Below, in pieces: positions 16,617 to 64,000 of a stretch of DNA of 64,000 bases. The position numbers were made by a program, and so were the translations under genes. How positions within the stretch are numbered: the first letter of the stretch is position 1; each line of letters opens with the position of its first letter. Source of the stretch: Neglectibacter sp. X58. Lineage in GTDB: Bacteria; Bacillota; Clostridia; Oscillospirales; Acutalibacteraceae. Under the pieces are notes generated by a model that searched no databases, was not told the origin of the DNA, and saw only the letters and a program-made list of their open reading frames with translations. The stretch covers positions 62,001-126,000 of the forward strand of contig NZ_QWEO01000002.1 of NCBI RefSeq assembly GCF_009936035.1, in the 5' to 3' direction.

Positions 16617-16798
16617 AATTATCTCCTCTTTTTTGTTTTTAGCATCCTCTCCTTTCCCCCCGCCGGTACAATCGCAACCGCCCGTATCTCCCTTAGCTTT
16701 CTCATATAATCCATCCTGGGGCACAGGCCTCAAAGGCAGCCCTTTGCCTCCTGTGCCGTTCCTTTCTCTTCTATTTTCCTTGTGCCGTTCAGTTGGCT

Positions 16799-17191
16799 TT
16801 ACAGCATTTCATTAAACTCGATCCGTTCCCGGTTCGGCCCCAGGATAATGAAAAACCGCACGCCCTTTTCCCAAAAGGGCAGCTCCTCAATGCCGCGGCT
16901 GACAATTTCATATCCCTGCTCCCGGGCCTTATCATAGCACGCGTCTATATTCTTCACATCCAGGGCCAGATGGTCAATAGCCCCGGACTCCATGGCGGCC
17001 TGCTTGTTCTCATAGGCCTCCATGGTCAGGTTCCCCAGCCGCAGGAAAGCCACCCGCTCCTTTGCGGCCTCATTCACCGTCTCATACACGTTTTCAAATC
17101 CCAGCCCCTCATAAAAGGCGATGGTCTTATCCATGTCGTTTGTGGGCAGGCCCACATGCTGCAGGCCTGCGGCAAATTCACCCAGCTTCAT
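16799..17191 (-). CDS. VOC (glyoxalase/bleomycin-resistance fold) family protein
   Basis: The 130-residue product is two beta-alpha-beta-beta-beta modules: LQHVGLPTNDMDKTIAFYEG, then IDHLALDVKNIDACY, ending FFIILGPNRERIEFNE. The potential metal ligands are the His in LQHVG, the Glu in TMEAYE, the His in IDHLA and the Glu in RIEF, so a metal site is plausible. The substrate is unknown. The ATG at 17191 is preceded by GGTGATT, the end of a hairpin leader shared with five other genes. It follows murF on the same strand by 82 nt and probably shares its transcript. Confidence 0.85.
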   Translation of the reverse strand: MKLGEFAAGLQHVGLPTNDMDKTIAFYEGLGFENVYETVNEAAKERVAFLRLGNLTMEAYENKQAAMESGAIDHLALDVKNIDACYDKAREQGYEIVSRGIEELPFWEKGVRFFIILGPNRERIEFNEML

Positions 17192-17263
17192 AACAATCAC
17201 CATGCGATGCAGAAAGTGCGCCAAAGAGACAGGCAGCCCCCCGCACCCCGCATCGCTCCTTTC
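17192..17263 (-). promoter_or_regulatory. Shared hairpin leader, copy before the VOC gene
   Basis: It begins GAAAGGAGCGATG. The outer stem is GCGATGC / GCATCGC and the inner stem GTGCG / CGCAC, then ATGGTGATT before the ATG. The AAAGGAG block is about 65 nt from the start codon in linear sequence but adjacent to it once the hairpin folds. Confidence 0.75.
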
Positions 17264-17273
17264 TTTTCATTTT

Positions 17274-18641
17274 TTATTTGCCCTGCTGGCTTCCTCCACA
17301 CAGGGCCTTCACAATCTCGTCCGTATGCATTCCCCGGGAGCCTTTCACCAGCACCGCGTCCCCCGCGCCTAAAGTGCCCTTCAGGAAGCCCAGTGCCTCC
17401 CCGTTTGAAGGGAACCATCTGGCGCCGTCCCCAAAGCCCTGGGCGATGTCCTTTGCCAGCGGCCCCACCGCTATCAGCTCATGGATGCCCTTCTCCCTGG
17501 CATATTGGCCCACCTCCAGGTGCGCCTGCCGGGAAACTTCCCCCAGTTCCAGCATATCCGCCAGCACAGCAAAGCGCCTGCCTTCGCAGGGCCGGGAGCA
17601 CAGCACATCCAGGGCACTGCGCATGGAATCGGGGCTGGCGTTATAGCTGTCGTCAATCACCGTCACGCCCCCTGCCTGGAGGATCTGCTGGCGCATGGCC
17701 GGCGGGGTGTAGTCTGCAATGGCCTGGGCGGCCGCCTCCCCTGCCATGCCCAGATGGCAGGCCACCGCCATGCAGGCCAGGGCGTTGCGCACATTGTGTA
17801 CCCCCGGGGCCGGCACAAAGACCTCCTGCTCCCAGCCCTGGGGGGACAGGCAGGTAAAACGGGTGCCGCCGTTTTCCTCCCGGAGATCCTGGGCCTGCCA
17901 ATAGCAGTCCTCCCCCAGGCCATAAGGTATCACCCGGCAGGCGGCAGTGTCCTCCAGGACGGACAGCAGGTCATCGTCGCCGTTTACGAAAAGCGCCCCG
18001 GTATAGGGGAGGTAGTCTGCGATGTGCAGCTTTTCCTTTAGAATATTCTCCCGGGTTTTGCAAAACTCAATGTGGGACACCCCGATGTTGGTGATAACCG
18101 CGCAGGTGGGCCGCACCACCGGGGCAATGCGCCCCATCTCCCCGGGCATGCTCATGCCCATCTCCACCACTGCGGCGGTGTGCCGCGGCTCCAGCCCGCA
18201 GATGGTGATGGGCACGCCCACCTGGCTGTTCTGGCTGCCGGCGGTTTTCATCACGTCAAACCCTGCGCTGAGGGTCTGGGCCAGCATCTCCTTGGTGGTG
18301 GTTTTGCCCACGCTGCCGGTTATCCCCACAATGGGCAGGTCAAACTGGCTGCGGTAGCAGGCGGCATACCGCTGCAAAGCCCCCCGGCAGTCCTCCACCA
18401 GCACCACCGGGCCTCCGGGGAAAGGGATTTCATGATCCGTAAAGGCTGCCGCAGCGCCCTTTTCAAACACAGAGGCAATATATGTATGCCCATCTGTGCG
18501 TTCCCCTCGGATGGGCACAAACATGGCCCCCGGCCCTGCCTCCCGGCTGTCTGTGATAAAATGGGTGACTTCCCTCTCCCCATCGCCCCACAGGATCTTC
18601 CCTTCCACAGCCGCCGCAATTTCCTCCAGCTTCGTCCGCAT
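17274..18641 (-). CDS. murF: UDP-MurNAc-tripeptide:D-alanyl-D-alanine ligase
   Basis: MurF adds D-Ala-D-Ala to the peptidoglycan precursor in the cytoplasm. The 455-residue product has the Mur N-domain, the ATP loop GITGSVGKTTTKEM near residue 110-120, the central FCKTRENILKEK region, and VIDDSYNASPDSM near 315, where the second Mur-ligase signature lies. I chose ATG 18641 because a GGTGGTT site precedes it; GTG at 18650 is in frame. Upstream is a small GCGCCAGG / CCTGGCGC hairpin after GAAAGGA, resembling a short form of the shared leader. Confidence 0.95.
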   Translation of the reverse strand: MRTKLEEIAAAVEGKILWGDGEREVTHFITDSREAGPGAMFVPIRGERTDGHTYIASVFEKGAAAAFTDHEIPFPGGPVVLVEDCRGALQRYAACYRSQFDLPIVGITGSVGKTTTKEMLAQTLSAGFDVMKTAGSQNSQVGVPITICGLEPRHTAAVVEMGMSMPGEMGRIAPVVRPTCAVITNIGVSHIEFCKTRENILKEKLHIADYLPYTGALFVNGDDDLLSVLEDTAACRVIPYGLGEDCYWQAQDLREENGGTRFTCLSPQGWEQEVFVPAPGVHNVRNALACMAVACHLGMAGEAAAQAIADYTPPAMRQQILQAGGVTVIDDSYNASPDSMRSALDVLCSRPCEGRRFAVLADMLELGEVSRQAHLEVGQYAREKGIHELIAVGPLAKDIAQGFGDGARWFPSNGEALGFLKGTLGAGDAVLVKGSRGMHTDEIVKALCGGSQQGK

Positions 18642-18714
18642 ATCAACCACCAGCCCGGCGCCAGGCAGCCCTGGCGCTCTTTCCTTTCTTCATAAAGTAT
18701 TTCAAAAGCAGTTC

Positions 18715-20755: not shown

Positions 20756-22420
20756 TCACATGTCGCGGAATTTGCGCACCTGGCGGAGCATCCGCTGCTT
20801 GCGGCGGTACATGACCATCAAAATAAAATATACAATGATAAGGGCCACAATAACCGCGATAATCACCACAAACCAGGGGGAGGAAAGCAGGGACTTCCCC
20901 TGCTCCCAGCTTGCCAGCAGGTCGCTGCGGGAAACAGACTCTGCCGCCACCAAAGGCACAGTAGCAATCACCTCATCGGCATAGCTTAAGGTGGCAGTGC
21001 CCACCTGCTCCCCCTTGCGCACCGGGGCCTGCACGCTTTCCGGCTTGTTCACCGTCACCACAATACTGCTGGCGTCCACGCTGTTGGGCAGCATGACGCT
21101 GGCGCTTTCCCCTGCCGCCAGCAGGAGCTGATCCTGCTGAAAGGCATACTCCAGGTTCACAGAACTGAGCACCTCTCCCGGGACAGCCACCGTCTTTTTC
21201 CCCAGGTTCTCCAAGGCCCAGCGGAACAGGGAGCGGGCGTCCAGCATTTCCCCATGAATCCCTTCCTCATAGCCTTCCATGTCCCCCAGGCATATCACCA
21301 CATAGGTATACCCCAAAGCGGTGGCGGAAGCCGCCAGGCAGTATCCCGCCTGGTTGTGAGAGCCTGTTTTGATGCCTGTAGCAGACTTATAATAATACTC
21401 TATGCCGCTTTGCTCGTCCATATAATTCTGCAAAAGCTTATTGGTGCTGTGAAAGGTTTCCTCGCTCTCGTTCACGTTTGTGGCAGGCTTTACATAGGCA
21501 AAGGTGCCTGTAATGTCTGTAAAATTGGGCAATGTCATGGCATATTCCGCAATCCGCGCCAAATCCCGGGCTGTGGAATAGTGATCCGGGTTATACAGGC
21601 CATGGGGGTTTGTAAAATGGGTGTTCCGGCAGCCCAGCTCCTCCGCCTTCTTGTTCATAAGCTGCACAAAATAGCTGTCCGGCGTATAGCCTGCCGGATC
21701 CCCGGTGAATTCCTCTTCCCCGCCGTCCTCTGTGCCGCCGTCCTCCGGGGAGTCCCCGCCTTCCGCCAGCAGGGCCATTTCCGGTTCCCCCGCCGCTTCC
21801 CCCTGGGGCGCTGCCTGGGGATCGTCTGCCTGCGCCTGCCCGCTGCCAGGGGCGCTTTCCCCGCCCCCCTGGGCCGCCTGGGGATCCTCCGGCTTTCCCT
21901 CCTCTTTGGGCGCGATAAGCCCCTGGGCATGAAGGGAATCCACATATTCCGCCAGGGTTAAAGCCGCGTCATTGCCCGAAGGCACCATCATCAGGTATAA
22001 AAGCTGCAGGCCTGTCAGCTCTTCCCCCACCGCAATGCCCGCTAAGGAGCTGCCTGTGCCCTCCAGATCGTCCGCTACGCTTTGGGGCACAGTGATTACC
22101 GTGTTCTCAATGTCCGGAATCGTCTCATAGGCCACAATGTAGCTCATAATTTTCGTCAGGGAAGCCATGGAAAGCCTCTCGTCCGGATTCAGGGCATACA
22201 CCACTGTGTCTGTGTCCAGGTTCAGCATGATAATGGATTTGCAGTGGGGGCCTTCCGGGTTCTGTTCGTCCTGATCCCACCCGAAGTCAAAGCCCTCCGC
22301 CTGGGCGGGAAGGGACAGGCAAACCGTCAGGCACGCTGCCAGAAACAGGGCTGAAAGAGAGCGGCAGGCCTTTTTTATGGGTATTCTGTATCGCATGGCG
22401 GTTTTCATAAAAAGCTTCAT
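20756..22420 (-). CDS. D-alanyl-D-alanine carboxypeptidase (DacF/PBP5-like)
   Basis: This is a secreted or membrane-anchored peptidoglycan carboxypeptidase, 554 residues. It has a signal peptide (about 18-41, ending PAQA), the catalytic SLTK at 87-90, SGN at 148-150 and KTG at 351-353. A C-terminal domain is followed by a transmembrane helix near residue 512-535. Unusually, residues about 171-240 between SGN and the rest of the domain are low complexity, rich in Gly, Glu, Ala and Pro, and look like an inserted loop. The start is ATG 22420 after AAGGAAG. The promoter-proximal region carries a diverged family A repeat. Confidence 0.93.
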   Translation of the reverse strand: MKLFMKTAMRYRIPIKKACRSLSALFLAACLTVCLSLPAQAEGFDFGWDQDEQNPEGPHCKSIIMLNLDTDTVVYALNPDERLSMASLTKIMSYIVAYETIPDIENTVITVPQSVADDLEGTGSSLAGIAVGEELTGLQLLYLMMVPSGNDAALTLAEYVDSLHAQGLIAPKEEGKPEDPQAAQGGGESAPGSGQAQADDPQAAPQGEAAGEPEMALLAEGGDSPEDGGTEDGGEEEFTGDPAGYTPDSYFVQLMNKKAEELGCRNTHFTNPHGLYNPDHYSTARDLARIAEYAMTLPNFTDITGTFAYVKPATNVNESEETFHSTNKLLQNYMDEQSGIEYYYKSATGIKTGSHNQAGYCLAASATALGYTYVVICLGDMEGYEEGIHGEMLDARSLFRWALENLGKKTVAVPGEVLSSVNLEYAFQQDQLLLAAGESASVMLPNSVDASSIVVTVNKPESVQAPVRKGEQVGTATLSYADEVIATVPLVAAESVSRSDLLASWEQGKSLLSSPWFVVIIAVIVALIIVYFILMVMYRRKQRMLRQVRKFRDM

Positions 22421-26587: not shown

Positions 26588-26637
26588 TAACATACAGAGG
26601 AAAAACCGCAGGGCCTTGGCCCCGCGAAAAATACAAA

Positions 26638-26712
26638 GAAAGGAGCGGTACAGGCGCGAAAGGCTGTTTTCCCGCTTTTCGGCGCATGTTTTGTATCGCA
26701 GGGCGATTTTAT
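26638..26712 (+). promoter_or_regulatory. Shared hairpin leader, copy before the rhomboid-like gene
   Basis: It begins GAAAGGAGCGGTACAGG. The outer stem is GCGGTACA / TGTATCGC; the inner stem GCGCGAAAGG pairs with CTTTTCGGCGC. It ends AGGGCGATTTTAT before ATG 26713. Confidence 0.8.
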
Positions 26713-27360
26713 ATGCATTGGATGGACAAATTGGAAAGGAAGCTGGGCAGGTACGCTGTCCCCCACATGATGTATGTCGTCACCGGCATTATGCTGGCGG
26801 TTTTCGCCGCCAATCTGGTGCTGGGGGGCATTGTGTCCCCCATGCTCTTCTTCCACCGGGGGCTTATCCTCCAGGGGCAGGTCTGGCGGATTATCACCTT
26901 CATTTTCCTGCCTCCCAGCACTTCGGTTCTGTGGATTGCCTTCAGCCTGTATTTCTACTGCCTTATGGGCAATGCCCTGGAAAGCGCCTGGGGAACCTTC
27001 CGCTTTAACCTGTTCTATCTCTGCGGCGTTGCCGGCTCCATTTTGGCAGGCTTTATCACAGGCACCGGGGTCAACCATTTCCTGAATATGTCCCTGTTTT
27101 TCGCTTATGCCGCTGTCTATCCGGAAAACCAGATTATGCTCTTTTTCTTCCTGCCCATCAAAGTGAAATGGCTGGCCGCCGCAAACGCCCTCTATTTCCT
27201 CTATATGTTTGTTGTGGGCGGCTGGACTGCCCGCGCCGCCATCCTGTTCTCCCTTTTAAATATCTGGCTCTTTTTCGGGGGCGACCTGTTCCGCCACATC
27301 CGCCAGCAGGCGGGATACTGGAAAACCCGCCGGCAGTTCCGCAAAAACAACAGGTTCTAA
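26713..27360 (+). CDS. Rhomboid-like membrane protein, probably not a protease
   Basis: The 215-residue product has about six hydrophobic helices and a basic C-terminus (TRRQFRKNN). The order of helices and the LCGVAGSILAGF segment resemble rhomboid-fold proteins seen in Clostridia. The catalytic GxSG serine motif and the paired His of active rhomboids are not evident, so a pseudoprotease or scaffold role is more likely. ATG 26713 or 26722 may be used. It is preceded by the shared hairpin leader and a consensus promoter, and followed by a terminator hairpin. It stands alone after sbcC. Confidence 0.7.
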   Translation: MHWMDKLERKLGRYAVPHMMYVVTGIMLAVFAANLVLGGIVSPMLFFHRGLILQGQVWRIITFIFLPPSTSVLWIAFSLYFYCLMGNALESAWGTFRFNLFYLCGVAGSILAGFITGTGVNHFLNMSLFFAYAAVYPENQIMLFFFLPIKVKWLAAANALYFLYMFVVGGWTARAAILFSLLNIWLFFGGDLFRHIRQQAGYWKTRRQFRKNNRF

Positions 27361-27521: not shown

Positions 27522-28379
27522 AATGGCCAGGGCCTGCCTGCCCAAAGCCTCATACGCCTGTTCCGTCTCCCGCTTGCCGTAGGCCACGGCCTTGCCTGCC
27601 ATAGGATCGTTAAAATAATAGCTGGACTCATCCTCCCCCACTAGCAGCAGGCAGTGCAGGGGGTATATCCACTGGAACTCCTCCCCGGTACCCTCTATGG
27701 TAAAAACAATGCCCGGCACAGGCGTTTCCATATCAATGGTGGCCCACACCAGCACAGGCACGCCTTGGCGCAGGCATCTTTGGCACAGTTCCGGCAAAGG
27801 CGTGTCCGTCAGGTTTATGATTGAGAGGGACGTTTCGTCCCTCTCGCGGAGGATATCCTCCGCGGCTTTTTCCACCACTGGCGCATAGCAGCCCCATCCC
27901 TCTTCGCTGTAAGGATTACCCGGGAAAGCTTCCCTGGGATCGCACCCTATATAGCCCCCAGCCCCGTCCGGATGGGGCGCCGCGCCTCTGGGAATGGCTT
28001 CCAGCACTTCTTCCGGGGTCACGTCTACCCCGGCATACTGCAGGGCCATGGTGGCTGTCACTCCCTCGCAGCCAGTGGGGAACCTGCCCCGCTGGTCAAT
28101 AAAAGGCACGTCCAGCAGGACAGATTCCTCCTGCACTGGGGCTGTATACTGCTCCATGGCCCGCCCGGTTTTTCCTAGCTCCCGCCACAGCGAAAAGCCC
28201 AGCACGCCCCACAGGCCGCACAGGGTCAGGCACAGGAACACCGTCCGCCCCAGCTTCTGCTTTTTCCGCCTGGATCCTTTCCGTTTCCTGACCATCCCTA
28301 CGCCCCGGGCCTGCGCAAAGCGGGCGGAAAAACCGCCTTCCCCCACTCTATGCCTGTTTCTTGCCGCCGCGTTTTTCAT
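27513..28379 (-). CDS. Membrane-anchored C39-like cysteine peptidase
   Basis: The 288-residue product has a basic cytoplasmic N-terminus (RKRKGSRRKKQK), one membrane helix (about 46-66), then an external papain-like domain. That domain has catalytic C104 (PTGCEGVTATM), H242 (YPLHCLLLVGED) and D258 (YFNDPM). It matches the C39_2 peptidase family; the role may be cell-wall or protein processing. The ATG at 28379 follows the shared leader. The last residues (IYS) and the TAA stop are read from the end of a family A repeat, so the native C-terminus may have been altered by insertion. Confidence 0.83.
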   Translation of the reverse strand: MKNAAARNRHRVGEGGFSARFAQARGVGMVRKRKGSRRKKQKLGRTVFLCLTLCGLWGVLGFSLWRELGKTGRAMEQYTAPVQEESVLLDVPFIDQRGRFPTGCEGVTATMALQYAGVDVTPEEVLEAIPRGAAPHPDGAGGYIGCDPREAFPGNPYSEEGWGCYAPVVEKAAEDILRERDETSLSIINLTDTPLPELCQRCLRQGVPVLVWATIDMETPVPGIVFTIEGTGEEFQWIYPLHCLLLVGEDESSYYFNDPMAGKAVAYGKRETEQAYEALGRQALAIYS

Positions 28380-28455
28380 ACCAGTCTCCATATGATGCAG
28401 GATTTGCAGAAAAAAAGCCAAATATCAGCCTTTTGTGCCCTGCATCGTTCCTTTC
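28380..28455 (-). promoter_or_regulatory. Shared hairpin leader, copy before the C39 peptidase
   Basis: It begins GAAAGGAACGATGCAGG. The outer stem GATGCAGG / CCTGCATC is a perfect 8 bp. The inner arm AAAAGGC pairs with GGCTTTTT. It ends ATATGGAGACTGGT before the ATG. Confidence 0.75.
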
Positions 28456-28473
28456 TCTGTTTTTTCATACTAA

Positions 28474-28628: not shown

Positions 28629-29489
28629 CTACACGGGGAACAAATCAATAAGCTTCCATCCCAAAGCCAGGCTCACAAGGTTTGCCAGGAGGCTGTACAG
28701 GGCGGTAACCCACCGCTTTTTCTCCTTGATAAACACGCAGAGCAAAAGCAGCTCTCCCAGGAAAACCACTGGCTCCACAAAGAGCAGCAGTACGGCAAGC
28801 CCATTATAAGGGCCTGCACCCTGGCCCATGAGTATGGCATTTAAAAAAGCCTGGGACAGCAGGTTTGTTACAAAAAAGGTTATCCAGCTATCCTTTTCCC
28901 GGTAGCCAAACCAGCAGAACACCAGCCCTTCCAGCAGCAGGGTCGCCCCCACCCGCAGGGCGATTTTCAGGAGGATCCACCAAAAGGGCCGTTCCCCCGG
29001 CAGCAGGGCGCCCTTTTCCAGATCCAGCGTTTGCAGCCGGGCGTAAGGGGCATAGTGATCGGTTGGCGGGTTCGCAAGGGGTACTTCCAGACTCACCCCT
29101 TCCCCCCGGGCCAGAAGGGAAACCTCCACCTCCGGCCCCATGTGGTACCAGTTTTCCAGCACCCAGGGGGTGAGGGTGTCGTACCACTGGTAGTACCTGG
29201 CCCCGGGCCGCTTCACCAGTTCCAATTCTTCCTCCCGCAGGGTTTTTCCATCTGTAACCCGCACAGCCATTTTCAAATCTGCCGGCCCGCCCCGCACCAG
29301 GATGGTTAAACTGGGCGGCTCCGCGGAATTGGCTAAGGCCCCTACAGGCAGAACCAACATGAACAGCCCTGCCAAAAGGCCCGCCCACAGCTTTTTGAAC
29401 TGCCTTGAAACACAACAGAACCCCTGCAAAAAGCGGCAAAAAAGCCGCCTATTATACCTGGTTCCACTTTTTTCTTCCGAATTTTTCAC
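28629..29489 (-). CDS. Membrane protein of unknown function, 286 aa
   Basis: I do not recognise the family. The GTG start at 29489 follows GGGGAGGAAG. A hydrophobic segment at about 37-53 (LWAGLLAGLFMLVLPVGALA) looks like a signal peptide or anchor. It is followed by about 115 residues of probable extracytoplasmic beta-rich sequence (LTILVRGGPADLKMAV..., WYDTLTPWVLENWY), then four hydrophobic helices from residue 165 on. The start overlaps the stop of the upstream phosphatase gene by 4 bp, showing coupling. Its position between a phosphatase and a surface peptidase suggests an envelope function. Confidence 0.7.
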   Translation of the reverse strand: MKNSEEKSGTRYNRRLFCRFLQGFCCVSRQFKKLWAGLLAGLFMLVLPVGALANSAEPPSLTILVRGGPADLKMAVRVTDGKTLREEELELVKRPGARYYQWYDTLTPWVLENWYHMGPEVEVSLLARGEGVSLEVPLANPPTDHYAPYARLQTLDLEKGALLPGERPFWWILLKIALRVGATLLLEGLVFCWFGYREKDSWITFFVTNLLSQAFLNAILMGQGAGPYNGLAVLLLFVEPVVFLGELLLLCVFIKEKKRWVTALYSLLANLVSLALGWKLIDLFPV

Positions 29490-33535: not shown

Positions 33536-33722
33536 AACCAGCCTTCGGCGGTTTAGGGGCTTTGAGTCTCGCCTCCCGGTTCGGTCGGTTGCTAGATGCG
33601 CCCCACCGGGGCGCAGCAGCCCCTAAAAACCCTGAAGCAACGCTAACGTGCAGCGTTTGCGTTTGCCCACACTTTGAAGAAGGCGGTGCATTCCTTACAT
33701 GAATGCAACAAACTTTTGTGTT
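33536..33722. repeat. Composite intergenic repeat with GC-rich core motif
   Basis: The blocks GGCGGTTTAGGGGCTTTG and CCCCTAAAAACCC are arranged as at 115-245. Here a segment carrying the core motif (33566-33588) is inserted between the two arms. AAACTTTTGTGTTTC closes both copies. The insertion point shows that the core is a separable module. No gene is evident from 33476 to 34014. Confidence 0.6.
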
Positions 33723-33898
33723 TCTCCATTTCTTAACACTCTCTTTCGGCATCCCCGAAGAATATACCCTCCGTAAAACCGCCGCATGGTACGGGATAGG
33801 CCCCCAAAAGAAGAAAGCATCCGCCTTTTACGCCTGGTACCGTTTATTCCTCCATATTCTTCCGCACGCCCCGCCACAAAAAGTTTACAAAAAAACCC

Positions 33899-35489: not shown

Positions 35490-36536
35490 TTAACGGATAG
35501 TCAGGGCCATGGGATATCCATCCGGCGTTTCGTCCCGGTATGACACCTCCACGTATACGCCCAGGCCAGAAGCCAGAACCTCTGTGCCGTCTGTTTTGAT
35601 GATTTGCACTTCCCTGCCGTCATCTGTGGAGAGGAGAAGAGAAGATTTCGTTTCATCCAAAATAGTTCCATAGATTTTTTTCAGGCCAAAGTCCTCTTCC
35701 TCATTGTCCTGCGCTTTTGCAACCAGCAGGATTTTTGTGGCGGTCATGCCGTCGGAAAGGTTCCCCTTGTGGAACACCCGGATGGTGTCCCCCACTGCAA
35801 TATCGCCTACCACCACAGTGGAATCGTCTTTCAGGATGGAATAGGTGAAGCCCTCATAGTCCAGCAGGATGGAATTCATGGTGTCATCCACACAAGGCCC
35901 GTCCACATAGCGGATGGCTTCCTGTCCTGCGGCGGGGACAGGCTCTGTCCCCGCTGAAGGGGCGGGATCGGGTTCCGGGGTGGCGGCGGGGCCTGGCGCA
36001 GCCGCGGCCTGGGACTCACCCTCGCTGCTTATCATGATACTCTGGGCTACCGCGTTCTCCTCTGACAGGGATCCGGTATAGAGCACCTCCACATGATCCC
36101 CAATGGTGATGCCATGGCCGGAGTGGACAACGGTTTCATCATTTTTCAGGATGGTATAGGTTTTGCCGTCTCCAGCGGTGATGGACAGGGAGGAATTGGA
36201 AGCGTCCGCCACCTCCCCGTAAATCACTTCCACAGCTACGGGGGGATGCTCCGCAGCCTTCAGCAGCTTCACCTCCTCCGCGTGTACGCCTTCCTCATAC
36301 TCCCCCTTGGAAATGACCTCCAAGGTATCCCCCAGGGCCTCCGCCTTGCTGTCCAGCTTTGTTTCGCCATCAATGGAATAGCGGTAAACTGTGCCGTCGG
36401 AAGCTGTGATGGACAGGGAGAATTTCTCCAGCTTTGTTAAAACGCCGCTTTTTGCCAGCGTCTTTTCCTTGCAGGCCCCCAGGGACAGGGCCAGTGCCAG
36501 GGCGCACAGCGCCAAAATCATACCTGTTTTCTTCAT
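35490..36536 (-). CDS. Lipoprotein with repeated beta-rich domains, unknown function
   Basis: The 348-residue product has a lipobox signal (LSLGAC, C22). It contains three related segments, each with a pattern 'SSL-S-TDG--Y-I-DG-T' followed by 'GD-(V/I)-V--G' (near residues 35-85, 110-165 and 215-275). A fourth, weaker unit lies at the end. A Pro/Ala/Glu linker interrupts the array at about 175-205. This looks like tandem small beta-barrel units of the kind found in secreted DUF5666-type proteins. The ATG at 36536 follows AAAGGTGATT and a GCCGGGCG / CGCCCGGC hairpin. No partner gene identifies its role. Confidence 0.75.
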   Translation of the reverse strand: MKKTGMILALCALALALSLGACKEKTLAKSGVLTKLEKFSLSITASDGTVYRYSIDGETKLDSKAEALGDTLEVISKGEYEEGVHAEEVKLLKAAEHPPVAVEVIYGEVADASNSSLSITAGDGKTYTILKNDETVVHSGHGITIGDHVEVLYTGSLSEENAVAQSIMISSEGESQAAAAPGPAATPEPDPAPSAGTEPVPAAGQEAIRYVDGPCVDDTMNSILLDYEGFTYSILKDDSTVVVGDIAVGDTIRVFHKGNLSDGMTATKILLVAKAQDNEEEDFGLKKIYGTILDETKSSLLLSTDDGREVQIIKTDGTEVLASGLGVYVEVSYRDETPDGYPMALTIR

Positions 36537-36673
36537 TGTAATCACCTTTGGGATGCCGGGCGGGAAAAGCCCTCTCCGCGCCCGGCGCCTCTCCTTTCTT
36601 TCACTATTAAAATCAGACAAGCTGCAAGCCGCGTTTTTGCCTTGTCCCAGATACCTATGCCACGCTGGTTTCC

Positions 36674-41903: not shown

Positions 41904-42060
41904 GACCTCGGGGGCTTGTCTCGCCTGCCGGCTCGGTCGGTTCGCATGCTTGCAAACGCTCGCGCGAAGCGCGAACGTTTGGCCACATGGCAGACGCTCA
42001 CCCCCTAACCCCCCACAGACCTTTTTGAAAAAGAAGGTTAAACATTCCCCTTTAGGAATG
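41904..42060. repeat. Composite intergenic repeat with GC-rich core motif
   Basis: It contains the core CCGGCTCGGTCGG (41918-41940), the hairpin GTTCGCATGC / GCGAACG-type and CGCGCGAAGCGCG, CACCCCCTAACCCCCC, and the hairpin CATTCCCCTTT / AGGAATG. No gene is evident. It lies between murD and the RNase R leader. Confidence 0.55.
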
Positions 42061-42120
42061 TCGATCCAAAAACCAATTTATGCGGAGTTTTTCTCCGGGA
42101 AAGCATCGTGTGAAGAATAC

Positions 42121-42197
42121 GAAAGGAAGGAGCGGTACCGGGCATAAAAGGCCGTTTTTCATGGCTTTTTGTGCGTATTCTGTGCCGCATGGCGATT
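42121..42197 (+). promoter_or_regulatory. Shared hairpin leader, copy before RNase R
   Basis: It begins GAAAGGAAGGAGCGGTACC. The outer stem is GCGGTAC / GTGCCGC. The inner stem GCATAAAAGGCC pairs with GGCTTTTTGTGC. It ends ATGGCGATT before ATG 42198. Confidence 0.8.
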
Positions 42198-44402
42198 ATG
42201 AAAACTAAAAAATTTGGAAACCAGAAATTTAGAAGCGGCGGCAGGACGCCCCGCACCATTTCCTCCGCCCAAACCTACGAGCTGCCCAGCGCGGCGAAAA
42301 CCATTGAGGAAAAGCTGGTGGTGGCGGCCCTGAAGCGCTGCGGCGGGGAAGGCGTACCCGCCAAGTCCCTTTTGCGGGAGGCGGGGATAAGCGACAAAAC
42401 CGCCTTTTACGACGCCCTGCACAGCCTGGAGGCTGTGGGGGAAATCAAGGTGGACAAGGATCACTGGGTGCGGCTTGTACCCCGCACCGGGGATATAGAA
42501 GCCACCCTTGTTTCCCTTTCGGAAAAATTTGGCTTTGCCAAGCCCAAAGCTGGCACGGAGGACATTTTTATCCCTGGCAGCGCCTTAAACGGGGCTTTTG
42601 TAGGAGATGAAATTATCATCGGGGACTTGCAGAAGCGGGAACGCGGCCCCAGCGGACGGGTGAAGCGCATCGTGAAGCGCAGCGAAAGCGCCGTTACCGG
42701 CACCCTCCATATAGGGGAGCAGGGCGCCGCAGTCACCCCGGACGGGGCGGTGCGCTTTGACATGCGGGTGGCCCCCGGGAAACTGAACGGGGCGAAGGAC
42801 GGGGACAAAGTGCTGATTGCCCCGAAAATGGACGGGCGCGGGGACTGGTCCCTGTGCGAGGTGCGCACTGTATTCGGCACAGGCAGCCGGGCCAGAGTAT
42901 GCGCCGACGCCATTATCGAGCGCTGCGGCATCCCCACCGCGTTTCCCCCGGAAGTGCTGGAGCAGGCGGAGGAGATTTCCAAAATGACCGTCACCCAGGC
43001 GGACATCGACAGCCGCCTGGATCTGCGGGACTGGCCTGTTTTCACCATCGACAGCGCCGACGCCAAAGACCTGGACGACGCGGTGTCTGCCCAAAAGACA
43101 GAATACGGCTACAAGCTGGGGGTACACATTGCGGACGTTTCCCACTACGTGAAGGCCAAAACCCCTATAGATGAAGAGGCCTACAAGCGGGGCACCTCCG
43201 TCTATTTTGCAGACCGGGTGATCCCCATGCTGCCCGAAGCACTGTCAAACGGGGTGTGCTCTTTAAACGCGGGCACAGAAAAGCTGACCTTCTCCGCCCT
43301 GATAGAGTTTGACTTAGAGGGGGAAATTACCGGCTATTCCTTCCACAAGTCTGTGATAAACTCCAAGGTGCGGGGGGTGTATAAAGAGGTAAACAAGATT
43401 TTTGACGGCACTGCCTCCCCGGAAATTTTAGAGAAATATGCCCCTGTGAAGGACAGCCTTGCCTGCACCCGGGAGCTGGCCCATGTGCTCCAGGCCCGGG
43501 CAAAGAGGCGCGGGGAAATGGATTTGTCCAGCGATGAGACAAAGTTTGTGCTGGACGGGGAAGGCGTATGCATAGACATCCTGCCCCGCACCCAGGGAGA
43601 AGCCGAGCAGCTTATTGAGCAGCTTATGATAGCCGCCAACATCTGCGCCGCCCGGGCCTCCCTGGACGCGGACGTCCCCTTCCTGTACCGGGTGCATGAG
43701 CGGCCCCAGCCCGACCGGGTGGTGGAGCTTTACGAGCTTTTGGACAGGCTTTCCATCCCCTGCAAGGAGCTGAAAAAAGGCCAGCCCGGCACTGTGGATT
43801 TTGCCGCGGTGCTGGACAGGGTAAAGGGCACGCCCCGGGAATCCCTGGTGAACCAGCGGATTCTGCGCACCATGGAAAAGGCCAAGTATAACCACAAGGA
43901 GCTGGGGCACTTTGGTTTGGCTTTGGCGGAATACAGCCACTTCACCTCCCCCATCCGGCGGTATCCCGACACCTCCATCCACCGCATCCTGACGGATTTA
44001 GTGGGCGGCGTGGACAAGGGGACTATCCGCAAGCGGTACGGGGTTTTCGCGGAGGAATCCGCCTTCGAGTCCTCCAAAAATGAAATCCGGGCCGTCACCG
44101 GGGAGCGGGACGCGGAGGACTGCTATATGGCGGAATATATGCGCGCCCACCTGGGAGAGCACCACCTGGGGGTTATCAGCGGGGTAACGCCCAAGGGGGT
44201 GTTCGTAAAGCTGCAAAACAACGCCGAGGGCTTTGTAAGCCTGCAGGACTTTGAAGGCTGCGACTTTGAGTTTGACGGGGAAATCTGCCACCGGGATCTG
44301 CGATCCGGCCGGGTGCTGATGATGGGGGACGAGCTGCCCATCATTGTGGCGGCGGCAGACGTGGCCACAGGCCGCATTGACTTCATGCCTGAGGAGGCAT
44401 AA
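42198..44402 (+). CDS. rnr: Ribonuclease R
   Basis: This 3'-5' exoribonuclease degrades structured RNA. The 734-residue product has an N-terminal winged-helix region, cold-shock domains, and the RNB domain with the catalytic Asp cluster (FTIDSADAKDLDDAVS). It ends with an S1 domain (LGVISGVTPKGVFVKL...). The start is ambiguous: ATG 42198 fits the pattern of the other leader-bearing genes, while ATG 42189 sits right after the hairpin. The usual partner smpB is not adjacent; bofA follows. As a structured-RNA exonuclease under a structured leader, self-regulation is conceivable. Confidence 0.93.
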   Translation: MKTKKFGNQKFRSGGRTPRTISSAQTYELPSAAKTIEEKLVVAALKRCGGEGVPAKSLLREAGISDKTAFYDALHSLEAVGEIKVDKDHWVRLVPRTGDIEATLVSLSEKFGFAKPKAGTEDIFIPGSALNGAFVGDEIIIGDLQKRERGPSGRVKRIVKRSESAVTGTLHIGEQGAAVTPDGAVRFDMRVAPGKLNGAKDGDKVLIAPKMDGRGDWSLCEVRTVFGTGSRARVCADAIIERCGIPTAFPPEVLEQAEEISKMTVTQADIDSRLDLRDWPVFTIDSADAKDLDDAVSAQKTEYGYKLGVHIADVSHYVKAKTPIDEEAYKRGTSVYFADRVIPMLPEALSNGVCSLNAGTEKLTFSALIEFDLEGEITGYSFHKSVINSKVRGVYKEVNKIFDGTASPEILEKYAPVKDSLACTRELAHVLQARAKRRGEMDLSSDETKFVLDGEGVCIDILPRTQGEAEQLIEQLMIAANICAARASLDADVPFLYRVHERPQPDRVVELYELLDRLSIPCKELKKGQPGTVDFAAVLDRVKGTPRESLVNQRILRTMEKAKYNHKELGHFGLALAEYSHFTSPIRRYPDTSIHRILTDLVGGVDKGTIRKRYGVFAEESAFESSKNEIRAVTGERDAEDCYMAEYMRAHLGEHHLGVISGVTPKGVFVKLQNNAEGFVSLQDFEGCDFEFDGEICHRDLRSGRVLMMGDELPIIVAAADVATGRIDFMPEEA

Positions 44403-44674: not shown

Positions 44675-44862
44675 TAGGACAAATTTTTCCGGCAAATTCT
44701 GCAGGCTTCTGTGTTGGAAATCCTCGAAGATACGAAAACGTTCGTATTTCTAAACGCATATATGCGTTTGCGGTTCATCCGCCTTGAAGCCCACGAAATC
44801 TTTTCGGAAATCTTTGCGCCACTCCTATCGGTACAACTTCTTAGAGTCTGTTTGAAAAACAC
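44675..44862 (-). repeat. MITE-like repeat family B, partial inverted copy
   Basis: Read on the minus strand, GGCTTCAAGGCGGATGAACCGC, AAACGCATATATGCGTTT and TCGAGGATTTCCAACA match the interior of the copy at 62360-62588. A separate terminus TTAGAGTCTGTTTGAAAAAC lies at 44841-44860 but points outward, so two damaged copies may be joined here. Confidence 0.65.
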
Positions 44863-47035: not shown

Positions 47036-47139
47036 TATAGCAAACACACTTTAAAATTGAGATTTACTGATTTTAAAGCCAGGCGGCTTTACCGCCTGGT
47101 TCAAAAGAGGTGCACCTCTTTTGAACTGTGTTAACTATA
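47036..47139. repeat. Palindromic repeat family A, copy 3 (104 bp)
   Basis: It starts TATAGCAAACACACTT and ends AACTGTGTTAACTATA. The terminal change G to A on the left is matched by C to T on the right, so pairing of the ends is kept. Internal hairpins are AGGCGGC / GCCGCCT-like and TTCAAAAGAGG / CCTCTTTTGAA. Confidence 0.9.
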
Positions 47140-47216
47140 AAAGCCCACTTTCATTTTTCGGTTGCGCGGCCTGTGTCCAGCGCGCAAAGGAGCCAAAGGC
47201 GGCGCGTGAACACCTC

Positions 47217-48563
47217 CTAAGACGCCAGCACCCCGCTGTCATCTATCTGCAGCAGGTATAGCTGCTCCTCCAGGCCTGTTTCTGTGTTCACATAGCTGAG
47301 CACCTGCCGCCCGTCCTCCCCTTTGCAGGAAAACTCCCAGCACAGCACCTCGTCCAGGCCAGGGGTGGGGATAACCGCCAGCCGGGTGCTTTCCACCTGG
47401 AGCAGCGGGCTTAAGCCTTCGGCGGCTTCTTCTGCCGAAAGGGCCGGGGTGGATAGGGAGCGCTCGCGGCAGTTCATCAAAAACCCTGTCCCGTCATATT
47501 CCACCATGCCACCCTTCTCAAGCTCTACCGTAACTTTAATAAGATCGGGATAGCACAGGGCTTCCTCCTCCCCCACTGCGGCTTTTGTGTGGAAATTCAC
47601 CGTACACAAGCCATCGCTGCTTACATAATAGCTTTCCTGCAGCGGGGGAAGCCCCAGGCCCTCCAGGGCCTTTTTTGCCGCCTTTAAGGCTTCTTCATAG
47701 GAAAGGCTGCCAGCGCCGCTGTTTTCCTTTTTATAATAGGCGATTTCCCCGCCCTGCCGGGTGACACGGATTTGCTCGCCCTCCCGGGCAAAGGAAAACA
47801 CAGGAAGCTGCCCGCCTCCTTCCCCGGTAAATTCCAAATCCCCTGCTGCGCAGCCTAAAAAGGCGGCGGCCTTTTCCCCGGCCTGTTCCCGGCTGATTTC
47901 CCCTTCCCCTTTCAGGTACAAAGGCTCCCTTTGGGGGATATGGTCGGAGAAAGGCCCGTCGTACAGCAGGGCGGGGAAATCGGCAAACTCCTTTGCCACG
48001 CTGTCAAAATCATCGTCCAGAAGGGCCAGCTCCTCAATTTCATCCACGTTGTTCAAAAGGCTTTCCAGCCTGTTTATCTGCGCCCCCTCTGCCGTCAGCC
48101 GGGCCTGTATGCCTGTGAGGGCCTCTTCCAGCTTGCCCGCATATGCCTGCAGGGTGGAAAAGCCCTCTAAGTCCTGCCGCTGAAGCTCCTCGCCAGAAAA
48201 GGATTTCCGTGTCAGGGCCAGGGCATAGTCCCCCACCTGGGACAGGAAACGGCTGATGCGCTCCGTTTTCTCCATAGAAAAGGGCAGGCTTCCCAAGGCT
48301 GCCTTGGCCCCGCCGCTCTGCTCCAGAAGCTGGGCGGACAGCACGCTCTGCATGGCGGGGGTTCCGGCATACCGGGCTTTTTCCAGCGTCCGGCCCATGC
48401 CGCTGACTTCATCGGTCAAGTCCCCCAGCGCCCGCTGGTATACATATTCCAGGCGGGTGCCGCTCTGGTTCAGGGAAAGCCGCAGGTCTATAAGAAAGCC
48501 GCCCCCTATAAACACCAAGGCCAGCCCGAAAGCCCACAGCCTGATTTTTCCTCGTCTGCTCAT
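47217..48563 (-). CDS. ypeB: Germination protein YpeB
   Basis: YpeB stabilises and localises the cortex-lytic enzyme SleB in spores. The 448-residue product has an N-terminal membrane helix (about 9-27), a long helical region containing LLNNVDEIEELALLDDDF, and C-terminal PepSY-type repeats ending YVNTETGLEEQLYLLQI. The ATG at 48563 follows the shared hairpin leader. In most spore formers sleB is directly upstream. Here the upstream neighbour is divergent ruvC and no sleB occurs in the window, so the pair is separated. Confidence 0.92.
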   Translation of the reverse strand: MSRRGKIRLWAFGLALVFIGGGFLIDLRLSLNQSGTRLEYVYQRALGDLTDEVSGMGRTLEKARYAGTPAMQSVLSAQLLEQSGGAKAALGSLPFSMEKTERISRFLSQVGDYALALTRKSFSGEELQRQDLEGFSTLQAYAGKLEEALTGIQARLTAEGAQINRLESLLNNVDEIEELALLDDDFDSVAKEFADFPALLYDGPFSDHIPQREPLYLKGEGEISREQAGEKAAAFLGCAAGDLEFTGEGGGQLPVFSFAREGEQIRVTRQGGEIAYYKKENSGAGSLSYEEALKAAKKALEGLGLPPLQESYYVSSDGLCTVNFHTKAAVGEEEALCYPDLIKVTVELEKGGMVEYDGTGFLMNCRERSLSTPALSAEEAAEGLSPLLQVESTRLAVIPTPGLDEVLCWEFSCKGEDGRQVLSYVNTETGLEEQLYLLQIDDSGVLAS

Positions 48564-48641
48564 ATTCAATCGCCCTGCGAACCGGAATCCGCACAAAGAG
48601 CTGTAAAGGAACAGCCTTTTGCGCCCGGTATCGCTCCTTTC
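48564..48641 (-). promoter_or_regulatory. Shared hairpin leader, copy before ypeB
   Basis: It begins GAAAGGAGCGATACCGG. The outer stem is GCGA...ACCGG / CCGGT...TCGC. The inner stem GCGCAAAAGGCTGT pairs with ACAGCTCTTTGTGC (one mismatch). It ends AGGGCGATTGAAT before the ATG. Confidence 0.8.
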
Positions 48642-48804
48642 ATAAAATTTTTCAAACAAACCCTATAACGCCTTTCCCCTAGTTTCCGCGAAGGAGCCGG
48701 GGAAAATTCATAGGCTGTTCGCATTTTTTATCTGTTCAATTCTTCCGGATTGTGGTATACTGATTGTGATTATGCGGCGGCACTGCCGCCAAGGAGGACG
48801 CTTT

Positions 48805-49998: not shown

Positions 49999-50069
49999 AC
50001 GGAAAAGTCCTTTTTCGATCAAACCTTTTTGGGGAAAAGGGGGAAGGCCCCCGGTGGGGTTCGCTCTGA

Positions 50070-50093
50070 CCCGACCGAGCCGGAAGGCGAGAA
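50070..50093 (-). repeat. GC-rich core motif copy between ruvA and the small gene
   Basis: CCGACCGAGCCGG followed by AAGGCGAGA matches the core found at 6737, 12817, 33566 and 41918. Here it lies inside a transcription unit, so it must be transcribed with ruvB. Confidence 0.6.
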
Positions 50094-53881: not shown

Positions 53882-54129
53882 CGCTTGACCCGGGACGCGG
53901 GGCGCAGACGTTCCGTCTGCTGGCGGGAAGAGACTTTTCGCTGCGGAATGAGATTCCGCGCTTACAAAGGCGGCCGCGTGCCCGGGGCACTCCCGATAGC
54001 ATGACAGCAAGCGTGACGCTTGACCCGGGACGCGGGGCACAGGCGTTCCGCCTGCTGGCGGGAGAAAATTTTCCGCTGCGGAATGAGATTCCGCGCTTAC
54101 AAAGGCGGCCGCGTGTCCGGGGCACTCCC
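53872..54129. repeat. GC-rich tandem direct repeat (family C), two units of about 135 bp
   Basis: Unit 1 starts at 53872 and unit 2 at 54007, each beginning GCAAGCGTGACGCTTGACCC. They are about 90% identical by eye. Each contains GGGACGCGGGGC, a GTTCCGYCTGCTGGCGGGA block, TTTTCSGCTGCGGAATGAG, and ATTCCGCGCTTACAAAGGC. A diverged copy lies at 20636-20755. The first unit overlaps the stop of the methyltransferase gene. Confidence 0.88.
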
Positions 54130-59433: not shown

Positions 59434-59492
59434 ATTGGCAGTAGTTTCATTTGAAGAAAGGAGCGGCCCCGGCTGGGCCACAGAGCAGGCGT

Positions 59493-60767
59493 ATGGGAAA
59501 ACACAGTAAAAAGGAAGAGCCGCAGATTATCCAGCTCCGGGATTACCAGAACCCGCCCCAGGAGACCGGGCCTGAAGAGGAACCGGAGGGCGGCGCGTCT
59601 ATTACATACGACGAAGGGAAAAGAAAACAGCCCGCCGCCGTACCCAAAGCGGTTTACCGGGCGGCAATCATCCTGCTGGTGCTGGTAATTGGACTGGCAT
59701 TGTGGATGAACCGCACAAGCCTGAATCCGGAGAGCATTGGTTCCTGGCTGAAGCTGCAGATTACCGGGGCGGAAATCGGCGACGGCTTTCCAGTGCAGAT
59801 TACCGGTTCCGAGGTGCTGGAAGCCAATTTCCTGGCCCAGGGAGGCAACGCGGTGGTGCTCAGCGATACTGTGTTCAGCATCCTCAATCCTACCGGGCGG
59901 GAGGAAATTTCCCTGCGCCACAGCCTGAACCATCCTGTGCTCCAGGGCGCTGGGGATCGGTATCTCCTTTATAACAGCGGCAGCACCGGCTATACAGCCC
60001 TTTCCGGCACAGACGTGGTGGTAAACAGCGTGGAGGAACGGGACATCCTTACAGGAGCCATCGCCCAGAACGGGCGGTTTGCCCTGGGGGTGCAGGGAAC
60101 CAATGGGGCCTCGGAACTGAAAGTGTACCAGAAGGACGGCACCCTCCAGTACCAGTATTCCCTGGCCTGGGACTACATCACCGCCATTGCCCTGAACTTC
60201 GACGGGGCTTATGGGGTGGTATGCACTGTGCGCAGCGACAAGGGCATCCTGATTTCCAAGGTGCTGGTGTTCGACTTTACAAACGAAGCCCCCATTGCCG
60301 AATATGAAACCCGGGAAAACCTGCTGCTGGCTGCCTATTGGGGGGAAAACGGATCTATCTATGCTGTGGGGGACACCGCCCTCCTGCGGGCCAGCTCTTC
60401 CGACTACAGCTTCTCAGAGGACAACTACCAGGGCCGGCAGCTTACCGCTTTCCGGCTGGGCGCGGGGCGGGCCTTCCTGTCCATTTCCGCTTACGAACAC
60501 GCTGGCGCAAGCACCCTGCTGGCCTATGGTTCCAGCGGGGAGGAACCTGTGCGCATGGAGGTGCAAAAGCGCATAGAGTCTGTCTCCGTATACGGGGGGA
60601 CGGTCGGGGTGCTTGCAGGCGGCGAAGCGGTGTTCTTCGACTATTCCACAGGCAAAGAGCTGGGCCGGGCCGACGCCGGCGGGGACGCCAAGGCCCTGGC
60701 CCTTTCCAGCGAAAGCGCCGCCTATGTGCTGGGTGTCAGCGAGGTGCGCGCCCTGCGGGTGGAATAA
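59493..60767 (+). CDS. DUF5711-like membrane-anchored beta-propeller protein
   Basis: The 424-residue product has a polar cytoplasmic N-terminus, a single membrane helix (about 54-71), and then about 340 external residues. These are repeated four-stranded blades with no enzyme motif (for example YLLYNSGSTGYTALSG, LILVFDFTNEAPIAEY-like and AVFFDYSTGKELG). This matches the DUF5711 family of Clostridia. The function is unknown. The ATG at 59493 has AGCAGGCG upstream, and GAAAGGAGC plus a small GGCCC / GGGCC hairpin lies 30 nt earlier, a possible short version of the shared leader. Confidence 0.8.
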   Translation: MGKHSKKEEPQIIQLRDYQNPPQETGPEEEPEGGASITYDEGKRKQPAAVPKAVYRAAIILLVLVIGLALWMNRTSLNPESIGSWLKLQITGAEIGDGFPVQITGSEVLEANFLAQGGNAVVLSDTVFSILNPTGREEISLRHSLNHPVLQGAGDRYLLYNSGSTGYTALSGTDVVVNSVEERDILTGAIAQNGRFALGVQGTNGASELKVYQKDGTLQYQYSLAWDYITAIALNFDGAYGVVCTVRSDKGILISKVLVFDFTNEAPIAEYETRENLLLAAYWGENGSIYAVGDTALLRASSSDYSFSEDNYQGRQLTAFRLGAGRAFLSISAYEHAGASTLLAYGSSGEEPVRMEVQKRIESVSVYGGTVGVLAGGEAVFFDYSTGKELGRADAGGDAKALALSSESAAYVLGVSEVRALRVE

Positions 60768-62588: not shown

Positions 62589-62608
62589 GGCCTGCCTTAA
62601 ACCCAACG

Positions 62609-62680
62609 GAAAGGAGCGGCGCCGGTCTGCGCAAGGGGATTTTTCCCTTTTGTGCAGATTTTTGGTTCCCATAGCGTTTT
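62609..62680 (+). promoter_or_regulatory. Shared hairpin leader, copy before addB
   Basis: It begins GAAAGGAGCGGCGCCGG. The inner stem TCTGCGCAAGGGGA pairs with TCCCTTTTGTGCAGA; the outer stem is weaker. The start ATG follows CCCATAGCGTTTT, which is a poor ribosome site by itself. Confidence 0.72.
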
Positions 62681-64000
62681 ATGCTGCAATTTGTGCTGGG
62701 CCGCGCGGGAAGCGGAAAAACAGAATATATGCGCAGGATGCTGGCGGACAAGGCCCTGTCAGGAGACAGCAGGTGCATCATGCTGGTGCCCGAGCAGTAT
62801 TCCTTTGAAACGGAAAAGGCCATGCTGCGCCTGGCAGGGGCCAGGCAGGCCAATGCCATCGGCATCTACAGCTTCACGAGGCTTGCGGAAACCGTTTTCC
62901 GCCGGGAAGGCGGGGCGGCAGGGCGCAGGCTCAGCGACGGGGGCAGGCGCATCCTGATGTCCTGCGCCATCGCGGCCTGCCAGGACAGCCTGGAGGTATA
63001 CCGCAGCGCCGCCCAAAGCGGGCGGACAACAGACATGATGCTCACCGCGGTAAACGAGATGAAAATGTGCGGGATAGAGCCTTTACAGCTTTTGGAAACA
63101 GCAGGGCGGCTGAAGGGCCAGGGCCTGGGACAGAAGGCGCGGGAGCTGGGGCTGATTTTTGAAACCTATGAAGCTTTGGTGGCGGCTTCCTACCTGGATG
63201 CCCGGGACGACCTGACAAGGCTGGCCCAGGCCCTGGAGGAAAGCCGCTTTTTTGCAGGCTGCACTGTGGCGGTAGATTCCTTTGAAGGCTTCACCGTCCA
63301 GGAAATGAAGGTGCTGGGGCAAATCCTCCGGCGGGCTGAAACCGTTACCGTCTCCTTGTGTACCGATGGCCTTGGGGATGACGCCGGGCTTTTCGCCCTG
63401 GTAGACCGCACCCATGCCCGCCTGCGCCGCCTAGCAGAGGAGCAGGGGGTGGGAATGCTGCCTCCTGTGGTGCTGACAGGCGCGCCGCGCTTTCATAATG
63501 AAAGCCTGAAGCTGCTGGAGGCTGGGCTTTTCTCCGGCGGGGAGGGGCTTTCCGCGGAGGACAGCCAGGGAGTTGCCCTGTTTCAGGCCAAGGACGTGTA
63601 CCAGGAGTCGGAATTTGTGGCGGCCACTATCCGGCGGCTGGTGGAGGAGCGGCACTGGCGGTACCGGGACATCTCCATCATCTGCCGGGATCCTTCCCGG
63701 TATTACGGCAGCCTGGACGTGGCCCTGAAAAAGCGAGACATTCCCTGTTTCATGTCCCAGCCCATGCGGGTGGACGCGGAGCCTGTAACGCGCTTTGCCC
63801 TGGGGGCCTTCCGGTGCGTGCAGTCGGGGCTTGCCACAGACAGCCTTTTGGAGCTTCTGAAAACCGGGGTGTCCGGCTTTACCGCGGAGGAAATTTCCGA
63901 TTTGGAAAATTACGCCTTCCTGTGGAAGGTAACCGGTTCCGGCTGGCGGCAGGAATTTGTCCGGCACCCCCAGGGCTTTGGGCGGGAATTTACAGAAGCG
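62681..64000 (+). CDS. addB: ATP-dependent helicase/nuclease subunit AddB, N-terminal part
   Basis: AddB works with AddA in double-strand-break resection, the Firmicutes counterpart of RecBCD. The first 440 residues are present and the gene continues beyond the right edge. The N-terminus MLQFVLGRAGSGKTEYMRR carries the Walker A of the AddB helicase-like fold. It is followed by LVPEQYSFETEKAML and SFTRLAETVF, both typical of AddB. The C-terminal iron-sulfur nuclease domain lies outside. The ATG at 62681 follows the shared hairpin leader; addA is expected downstream. Confidence 0.93.
   Translation, partial: MLQFVLGRAGSGKTEYMRRMLADKALSGDSRCIMLVPEQYSFETEKAMLRLAGARQANAIGIYSFTRLAETVFRREGGAAGRRLSDGGRRILMSCAIAACQDSLEVYRSAAQSGRTTDMMLTAVNEMKMCGIEPLQLLETAGRLKGQGLGQKARELGLIFETYEALVAASYLDARDDLTRLAQALEESRFFAGCTVAVDSFEGFTVQEMKVLGQILRRAETVTVSLCTDGLGDDAGLFALVDRTHARLRRLAEEQGVGMLPPVVLTGAPRFHNESLKLLEAGLFSGGEGLSAEDSQGVALFQAKDVYQESEFVAATIRRLVEERHWRYRDISIICRDPSRYYGSLDVALKKRDIPCFMSQPMRVDAEPVTRFALGAFRCVQSGLATDSLLELLKTGVSGFTAEEISDLENYAFLWKVTGSGWRQEFVRHPQGFGREFTEA

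Follow-up and report, generated by a model that had tools for sequence, protein, structure and literature searches.

A likely mobile hairpin element between Shine-Dalgarno sequence and start codon, in many copies in an Acutalibacter-group bacterium and some of its relatives

Many copies of one hairpin-forming sequence are found in the Acutalibacter-group bacterium Neglectibacter sp. X58 and in some of its relatives. We think it likely that this sequence is a small (~85 nt), non-coding mobile DNA element lying between the native Shine-Dalgarno sequence (SD) of a gene and its start codon, and that its own SD and hairpin keep the gene translatable. Because orthologs in close relatives show a plain SD, spacer and ATG, the element is, as judged by this comparison, mobile and MITE-like and inserted between SD and start codon.

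Results

The window, a stretch of 64,000 nt that was analyzed as a whole, had been described from its letters as carrying six related leaders. All six are present where this sequence-only reading placed them, and their hairpins fold as it described. In order of their score in the covariance model (see below), they precede the RNase R gene rnr (42110..42203, + strand, 86.7 bits, fold of -30.4 kcal/mol), ypeB (48562..48655, - strand, 82.9 bits, Pfam YPEB domains downstream), a gene for a C39-like peptidase (28377..28469, - strand, 81.5 bits, PF13529 downstream), a gene earlier called rhomboid-like (26624..26714, + strand, 76.9 bits), a VOC/glyoxalase gene (17189..17277, - strand, 75.1 bits, PF00903 downstream) and addB (62595..62685, + strand, 45.2 bits, ATG at 62681, ADDB_N downstream). 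Domain matches bear out the names VOC/glyoxalase, C39-like peptidase, RNase R (RNB), YpeB and AddB; the protein called rhomboid-like has no Pfam match. The rnr leader, whose sequence we correct to GAAAGGAAGGAGCG, is made up of the SD GGAAGGAG, the hairpin, GGCGATT and the ATG at 42198, and the ortholog in the relative G001 has no copy. The addB leader is also present, but its minimum free energy (MFE) fold pairs the SD in part.

The 5' end of the element is A-rich (GTGTGAAAAATAC). Its own SD, GAAAGGA, lies just 5' of an imperfect hairpin that begins 0-2 nt past the SD in most copies, and the 3' flank, CATGG(C/T)GATT, stops a few nt short of the start codon. The leaders had been taken to begin at GAAAGGA, which is indeed found there, but the conserved cassette begins about 15 nt further 5', at GTGTGAAAAATAC, and ends near GGCGATT. 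Between native SD and start codon, the element is found in one orientation. The loop and inner stem are often deleted, and many shorter copies have lost the inner stem and kept the SD, the closing stem and the spacing.

The six leaders understated the number of copies. A covariance model was built from 26 aligned copies, with an RNAalifold structure of 16 pairs, and in its own genome it gave at least 110 matches at E<=1 and at least 101 at E<=0.01, a search that scored 150 of 1993 candidates and may undercount. After the loci were fetched, 109 matches were aligned; we dropped the 6 that scored below 24 bits and based the following counts on the remaining 103. Across the 3.36-Mb genome, the pattern GAAAGGARCGRYRC is found 52 times, vs 0 times in a reversed-sequence control. 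We looked for a longer, autonomous form among the GAAAGGARCGRYRC matches that had no strong model match; at least 3 of the 52 (L136, L137 and L138) are of this kind, and these are coding or truncated sequence. Among 143 non-redundant copies (<95% alike), GAAAGGA is exact in 96 and GG(C/T)GAT in 71, with the full GGTGAT in 17, and GG(C/T) is found in 128.

Further matches in the window are of several kinds. Two are diverged copies, one with a different hairpin followed by GGTGATT and ATG (36534..36612, - strand, 32.2 bits, E 4.9e-5, with a predicted fold), and one with the stem GGCACAGG/CCTGTGCC, from whose ATG the ORF runs for 28 codons only (16703..16780, - strand, 40.4 bits). A degraded intergenic copy has no start codon at its end (33771..33864, - strand, 41.4 bits), another degraded copy has lost the SD and kept the outer stem in part (29392..29489, - strand, 32.3 bits, with a predicted fold), and a 3' fragment covers model positions 24-93 (22342..22408, + strand, 27.2 bits). 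Two folded, sub-threshold matches are possible shortened relics: GAAAGGA, an 8-bp hairpin and ATG before a Mur-ligase gene (18639..18702, - strand, 15.0 bits, E 0.64, PF08245 downstream), and GAAAGGAGC, a short GGCCC/GGGCC hairpin and ATG (59442..59496, + strand, 16.3 bits, E 0.32).

We then compared the element with Rfam 15, as had been proposed, and found no family matched in the copies scanned (the window at gathering scores, the rnr leader at E<=10 and nine loci at E<=1). The only matches to reach gathering scores were a lysine riboswitch, an FMN riboswitch and two tRNAs, none of them within the element. Among the literature matches listed, which were open-licence papers, no description of such an element was found.

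Position was scored against reading frames that span at least 60 codons or continue beyond the fetched sequence. Eighty-three of the 103 own-genome copies end at an ATG opening such a frame, vs 555 of 5000 random positions in the control, and so do 34 of the 41 best-scoring copies (at least 80 bits). When GTG and TTG were included, 87 of the 103 lay at starts, some of them spurious (e.g. the copy at window position 29392). The other 16, away from a qualifying start, include upstream members of tandem pairs (e.g. L021 and L047) and two copies just 5' of an intact native ribosome-binding site (RBS; L006 and L051), and the rest are intergenic or degraded. Beyond this genome, a candidate start was found near the model end in 43 of 46 copies examined, which come from eleven further members of the genus and one genome outside the genus; in one of the 43, L141, a native RBS lies between copy and start. 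In each of 20 stretches chosen from seven genomes of other genera, one copy lies ahead of a candidate start; another six copies in these genomes are upstream members of tandem arrays. The target genes identified are nagA, lgt, rapZ and the genes of RNase R and AddB, with truA in another genus, and their functions are unrelated.

Head-to-tail tandem arrays of 2-4 copies were noticed at L334 and L335 (G443), L331 (G131) and L021 (G000). The last copy of an array stands at the start codon, as if new copies repeatedly enter the same SD-start spacer.

The comparison with orthologs covered 11 genes that carry the element and three relatives, G001, G006 and G027, with 30 of 33 matches read by eye. 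In 29 of the 30 orthologs, the start is preceded by an ordinary SD and spacer; the remaining one, L220, has a version with a short, GC-rich hairpin. The element adds a cassette of ~85 nt in the SD-ATG spacer where the relatives' orthologs have none, which bears out the earlier suggestion of a mobile repeat that enters between ribosome site and start. The start codons of the orthologs are supported, since protein alignments begin at residue 1 in 29 of the 30. For example, the RNase R gene reads tctccgggaaagataaaATTATG in G001, and tctccgggaaag, the element and ATTATG in the Neglectibacter genome studied here; before lgt, the native SD GCAAGGAGGAAAT persists 5' of the element. When 45 ortholog loci were scanned with the model, one match, L220 (28 bits), lay at the start of an ortholog; the other, L222, was weak (14.6 bits) and lay elsewhere. 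In the converse comparison, starting from eight element genes of G027, the full element was found in 0 of the 22 orthologs read, the exact start being uncertain for several, and the own-genome locus L321 has a short hairpin relic where the G027 ortholog has the element.

The cleanest case is that of L081, a G027 gene that we take to be Bcp-like. The G001 sequence is AAAAGGAGGACGTTAATATG, vs AAAAGGAGGATGTTA, the element and ATATG in G027. Removal of GTGTGAAAA...GGTGATTG from L081 leaves AAAAGGAGGATGTTA-ATATG, so that the empty site is restored, with no target-site duplication in this one clean case. No terminal inverted repeats were found, the ends GTGTGAAAAATAC and GGCGATT not being inverted repeats of each other. 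In 15 of the 33 cases that could be read, TA immediately precedes the element. A native SD (at least 5 nt matching the 16S complement) lies just 5' of the element in 26 of 87 copies vs 16 of 87 and 13 of 87 in control stretches, a modest enrichment that is expected if the displaced native SD decays.

By an uncounted reading, the 5' end of the element is often GTGTGA, a start and an immediate stop a few nt past the displaced native SD. From its sequence, this could be a start-stop site for ribosomes loading there.

We next analyzed covariation in the set of 143 copies. In these alignments, which are fitted to the model and hence lean towards its structure, the top four covarying pairs (25:76, 27:74, 34:63 and 35:62) are stem pairs of the model, with APC-G values of 58 to 37; the maximum reached by 20 column shuffles, which ignore relatedness, was 23.6. 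Nine pairs exceed this maximum: four in the stem, four in the terminal-loop region outside the model structure and one near-neighbor pair in the 5' segment (8:11). Double-change cells in the named structure numbered 114 vs 39.5+-6.5 expected, a value reached by 0 of 500 shuffles, and the seven other-genus genomes alone gave 30 vs 11.3+-2.5. The outermost stem pairs, which adjoin fixed anchors, depend least on the fitting. Many matches fixed at 5' ends and covarying had been named beforehand as what would count as support, and the covariance model and column shuffles found both. We also considered a 3' hairpin switch, in which ATCGC-ATG-GCGAT would pair the 3' arm with GGCGAT, and rejected it; no clear covariation was seen over its five pairs (p 0.018 to 0.6).

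How could a gene be translated through such an insert? In the 87 copies at starts, the linear gap from SD to start is 33-79 nt (median 69), and the predicted folded gap, with MFE helices removed, has a median of 12 nt (range 2-20, below 10 in 25 of 87). In 79 of the 87 copies the main hairpin starts 0-2 nt past the SD, and in 57 its 3' end is 12-14 nt from the start codon. By prediction, the SD is unpaired with a mean probability of 0.72 and the start codon with one of only 0.51; the MFE folds do not form a single clean hairpin in every copy. We propose that the 30S subunit would pair with GAAAGGA while the hairpin is looped out; looping out would shrink the linear gap to about 12 nt, and the gene would stay translatable. 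The element would in this way be self-accommodating, its own fold canceling the damage that its insertion does to initiation.

The 16S tail of this genome is presumably GGATCACCTCCTTTCT, and the complement of this putative tail is AGAAAGGAGGTGATCC, of which the flanks GAAAGGA and GG(C/T)GAT are adjoining halves. Since GG(C/T)GAT extends the 16S complement, the tail may pair on both sides of the hairpin. Most copies have a C where the complement needs a T, and the 5' part in G337 is AGAAGGAGG, so exact tiling of the SD is not universal; on account of this mismatch and this variant, we treat an exactly split SD as hypothetical.

Copies that have diverged tell whether the SD is retained. We compared copies of 24-80 bits, scoring the SD as kept when at least 6 of its 7 bases were present. 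It is kept in 48 of 53 start-adjacent diverged copies vs 3 of 9 others (Fisher p=5e-4), the second group being small and all copies model-selected. Outer pairs are also better kept at starts, 4.8 vs 4.2 of 5 (one-sided p=0.003), and bit scores of the two groups are not clearly different (p=0.12). Because diverged copies at starts retain the SD and other diverged copies mostly do not, these data suggest that the bridged SD is in use. Orthologous leaders (L148/L321, L013/L083, L056/L068 and L021/L220) keep SD, hairpin and start, and differ in the sequence and length of the hairpin. In the first pair, the hairpin is long in L148 (G027) and short in L321 (own genome), and this case is free of model-selection bias because the model did not report L321. 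When 14 ortholog leaders were folded, the SD was wholly unpaired in 7, and L134 and L125 were without the expected hairpin. Taken together, the anatomy and the pattern of SD retention fit the hairpin-bridged SD proposed earlier, from which we infer that it may function in this way.

The element was found in other members of the family, as a scan proposed in the sequence-only reading would have it: with ten candidates scored per genome, copies at E<=0.001 were present in 27 of 398 genomes and 18 of 135 genera. Among the first 60 relatives, 13 match at E<=0.01, namely 12 of 29 genus members (own genome included) and one weak match outside. An exact two-part pattern retrieved 43 stretches from the genome collection, a search from which the own genome was possibly left out, and their records are titled Oscillospiraceae, Ruminococcaceae, Clostridia, Neglectibacter or Acutalibacter only. 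The same pattern had no match in viral_contigs, where diverged copies would be missed, and phage carriage was rejected on this result. The family has probably been active recently, because four G027 copies (L061, L073, L081 and L084) are 88-91 of 94 identical to one another.

No transposase linked to the element was seen. Mobilization by IS200/RAYT was considered and rejected: 0 copies at E<=10 were found around 8 of 13 Y1 places, the ends of IS200 differ by eye from those of the element, and co-occurrence is weak, with copies in 7 of the 9 genus genomes that have Y1 vs 5 of the 20 that do not (p=0.014, with genome size and ancestry as confounders).

Two further cases were noted in this survey. 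L073 (G027, ~1501-1594) is a near-consensus copy inside the loop of another palindromic repeat (CCGCCTAAGAAAG ... CTTTCTTAGG). L069 (G006) and L123 (G000) have the same leader and a protein 99.75% identical over 400 aa, and RNase R of both genomes is 88% identical; the identity of the two loci points to recent transfer or shared contamination.

The window has other repeats and signals. A second interspersed repeat of ~110 nt with inverted ends (TATAG.AAACGCA ... TGCGTTAACTATA) occurs at 14961-15075, 27416-27529 and 47036-47147, and from its sequence looks like a more classical MITE. A repeat with GTCTCGCCTGCCGGCTCGGTCGG or close forms is found in both orientations (12817-12845, 33566-33594, 41918-41946, 6733-6784 and 50063-50092). 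There are also a 40-nt inverted pair, 95% complementary, with ATATGCGTTTGCGGTTCATCCGCC (44752-44791 and 62414-62453), a lysine riboswitch of 103 bits (9855-10032, - strand) and a 124-nt tandem duplication, 93% identical (53872-53995 and 54007-54130).

Discussion

The element could be a plain MITE-like repeat, in which GG(C/T)GAT, a weak SD some 10 nt 5' of the ATG, would alone direct translation and GAAAGGA and the hairpin would serve mobility only. Hairpins are frequent in mobile repeats, GG(C/T) is found in 128 of the 143 copies, and the two G027 copies nearest to the model (L061 and L073) lie away from starts. We nevertheless hold this to be unlikely: among diverged copies, GAAAGGA is kept at starts and mostly lost elsewhere (48 of 53 vs 3 of 9), the outer pairs are better kept at starts, and orthologous leaders swap the hairpin yet retain SD and hairpin. 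Less probable again is a dispersed cis-regulatory RNA, such as a riboswitch, a thermometer or a protein site, that would place ~100 genes under one translational control. The fixed place and orientation, the covariation and the conserved GTGTGAAAAATAC segment would suit it, but Rfam gave no match in what was scanned, the identified targets are unrelated, the loop and inner stem are often deleted, and the alternative pairing ATCGC-ATG-GCGAT has no clear covariation. The ligand- or protein-sensing RNA that had been suggested earlier is thus without support.

The chance that the element encodes an extension of the protein's N terminus, translated via the native SD from a GTG within the element's 5' end, seems to us close to nil. 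The consensus is itself an open frame, and several copies do have a GTG a few nt past a native SD, but the frame relative to the gene is uniform (24, 30 and 33 of 87), and an open, in-frame extension that begins with a start codon is found in only 2 of the 87 copies, a test by which we ruled out a coding extension.

We return to the mobile element with a bridged SD. MITEs, REP, BOX, ERIC and RUP are interspersed palindromic repeats of bacteria. Like them, the element is short, multicopy, non-coding, hairpin-forming and patchy among relatives, and its insertion polymorphism between relatives, together with its short, non-coding and multicopy nature, is what marks a MITE. Unlike them, it sits in the SD-start spacer, in one orientation, with its own SD, and in contrast to MITEs no terminal inverted repeat and, in the one clean case, no target duplication was seen.

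Split ribosome sites are described for T4 genes 25 and 38, where the SD is too far from the start linearly and RNA structure in between restores the spacing, from 27 to 11 nt in gene 25 and from 22 to 5 nt in gene 38 (Nivinskas 1999; Malys and Nivinskas 2009; both as given in excerpts of the review PMC3014915). As in these excerpts, the SD of the element is set beyond the usual spacing by a stem-loop, and the predicted fold restores it; genes 25 and 38 are, by the same excerpts, two single cases whose short structures were tested by mutation, whereas the element has ~100 dispersed mobile copies in one genome with a median gap of 69 nt, known from sequence. A genome-wide placement before starts is shared by the TAACTGA direct repeats of Beggiatoaceae, of which 170 sets occur in one genome, mostly just 5' of start codons, with no gene-function pattern and with suspected transfer between lineages (excerpts of PMC4679880). 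As these excerpts present them, they are tandem heptamers with little SD character and without a hairpin bridging an SD, unlike the element. A mobile hairpin cassette with its own SD is not described for T4 or for the Beggiatoaceae repeats in the excerpts of PMC3014915 and PMC4679880.

On balance we favor, with some reserve, the view that translation initiation accommodates this element and that it stands for a new class of mobile elements. It would prefer the SD-start spacer, bring a folded, two-half ribosome site and neutralize its own insertion; the leader would then be permanently needed, could erode to short hairpins and could not unfold. Self-splicing introns and inteins likewise neutralize their own insertion, at other levels.

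The structure-bridged SDs that we found described are those of two phage genes; here there are ~100 copies in one genome and more across the family. Since matched empty sites, tandem arrays and eroded forms exist, the rules of long-range, fold-dependent initiation are testable at scale. If our reading is true, a mobile element depends for its survival on how its RNA folds at the ribosome, and the element has to be taken into account when gene starts and RBSs are predicted in these bacteria.
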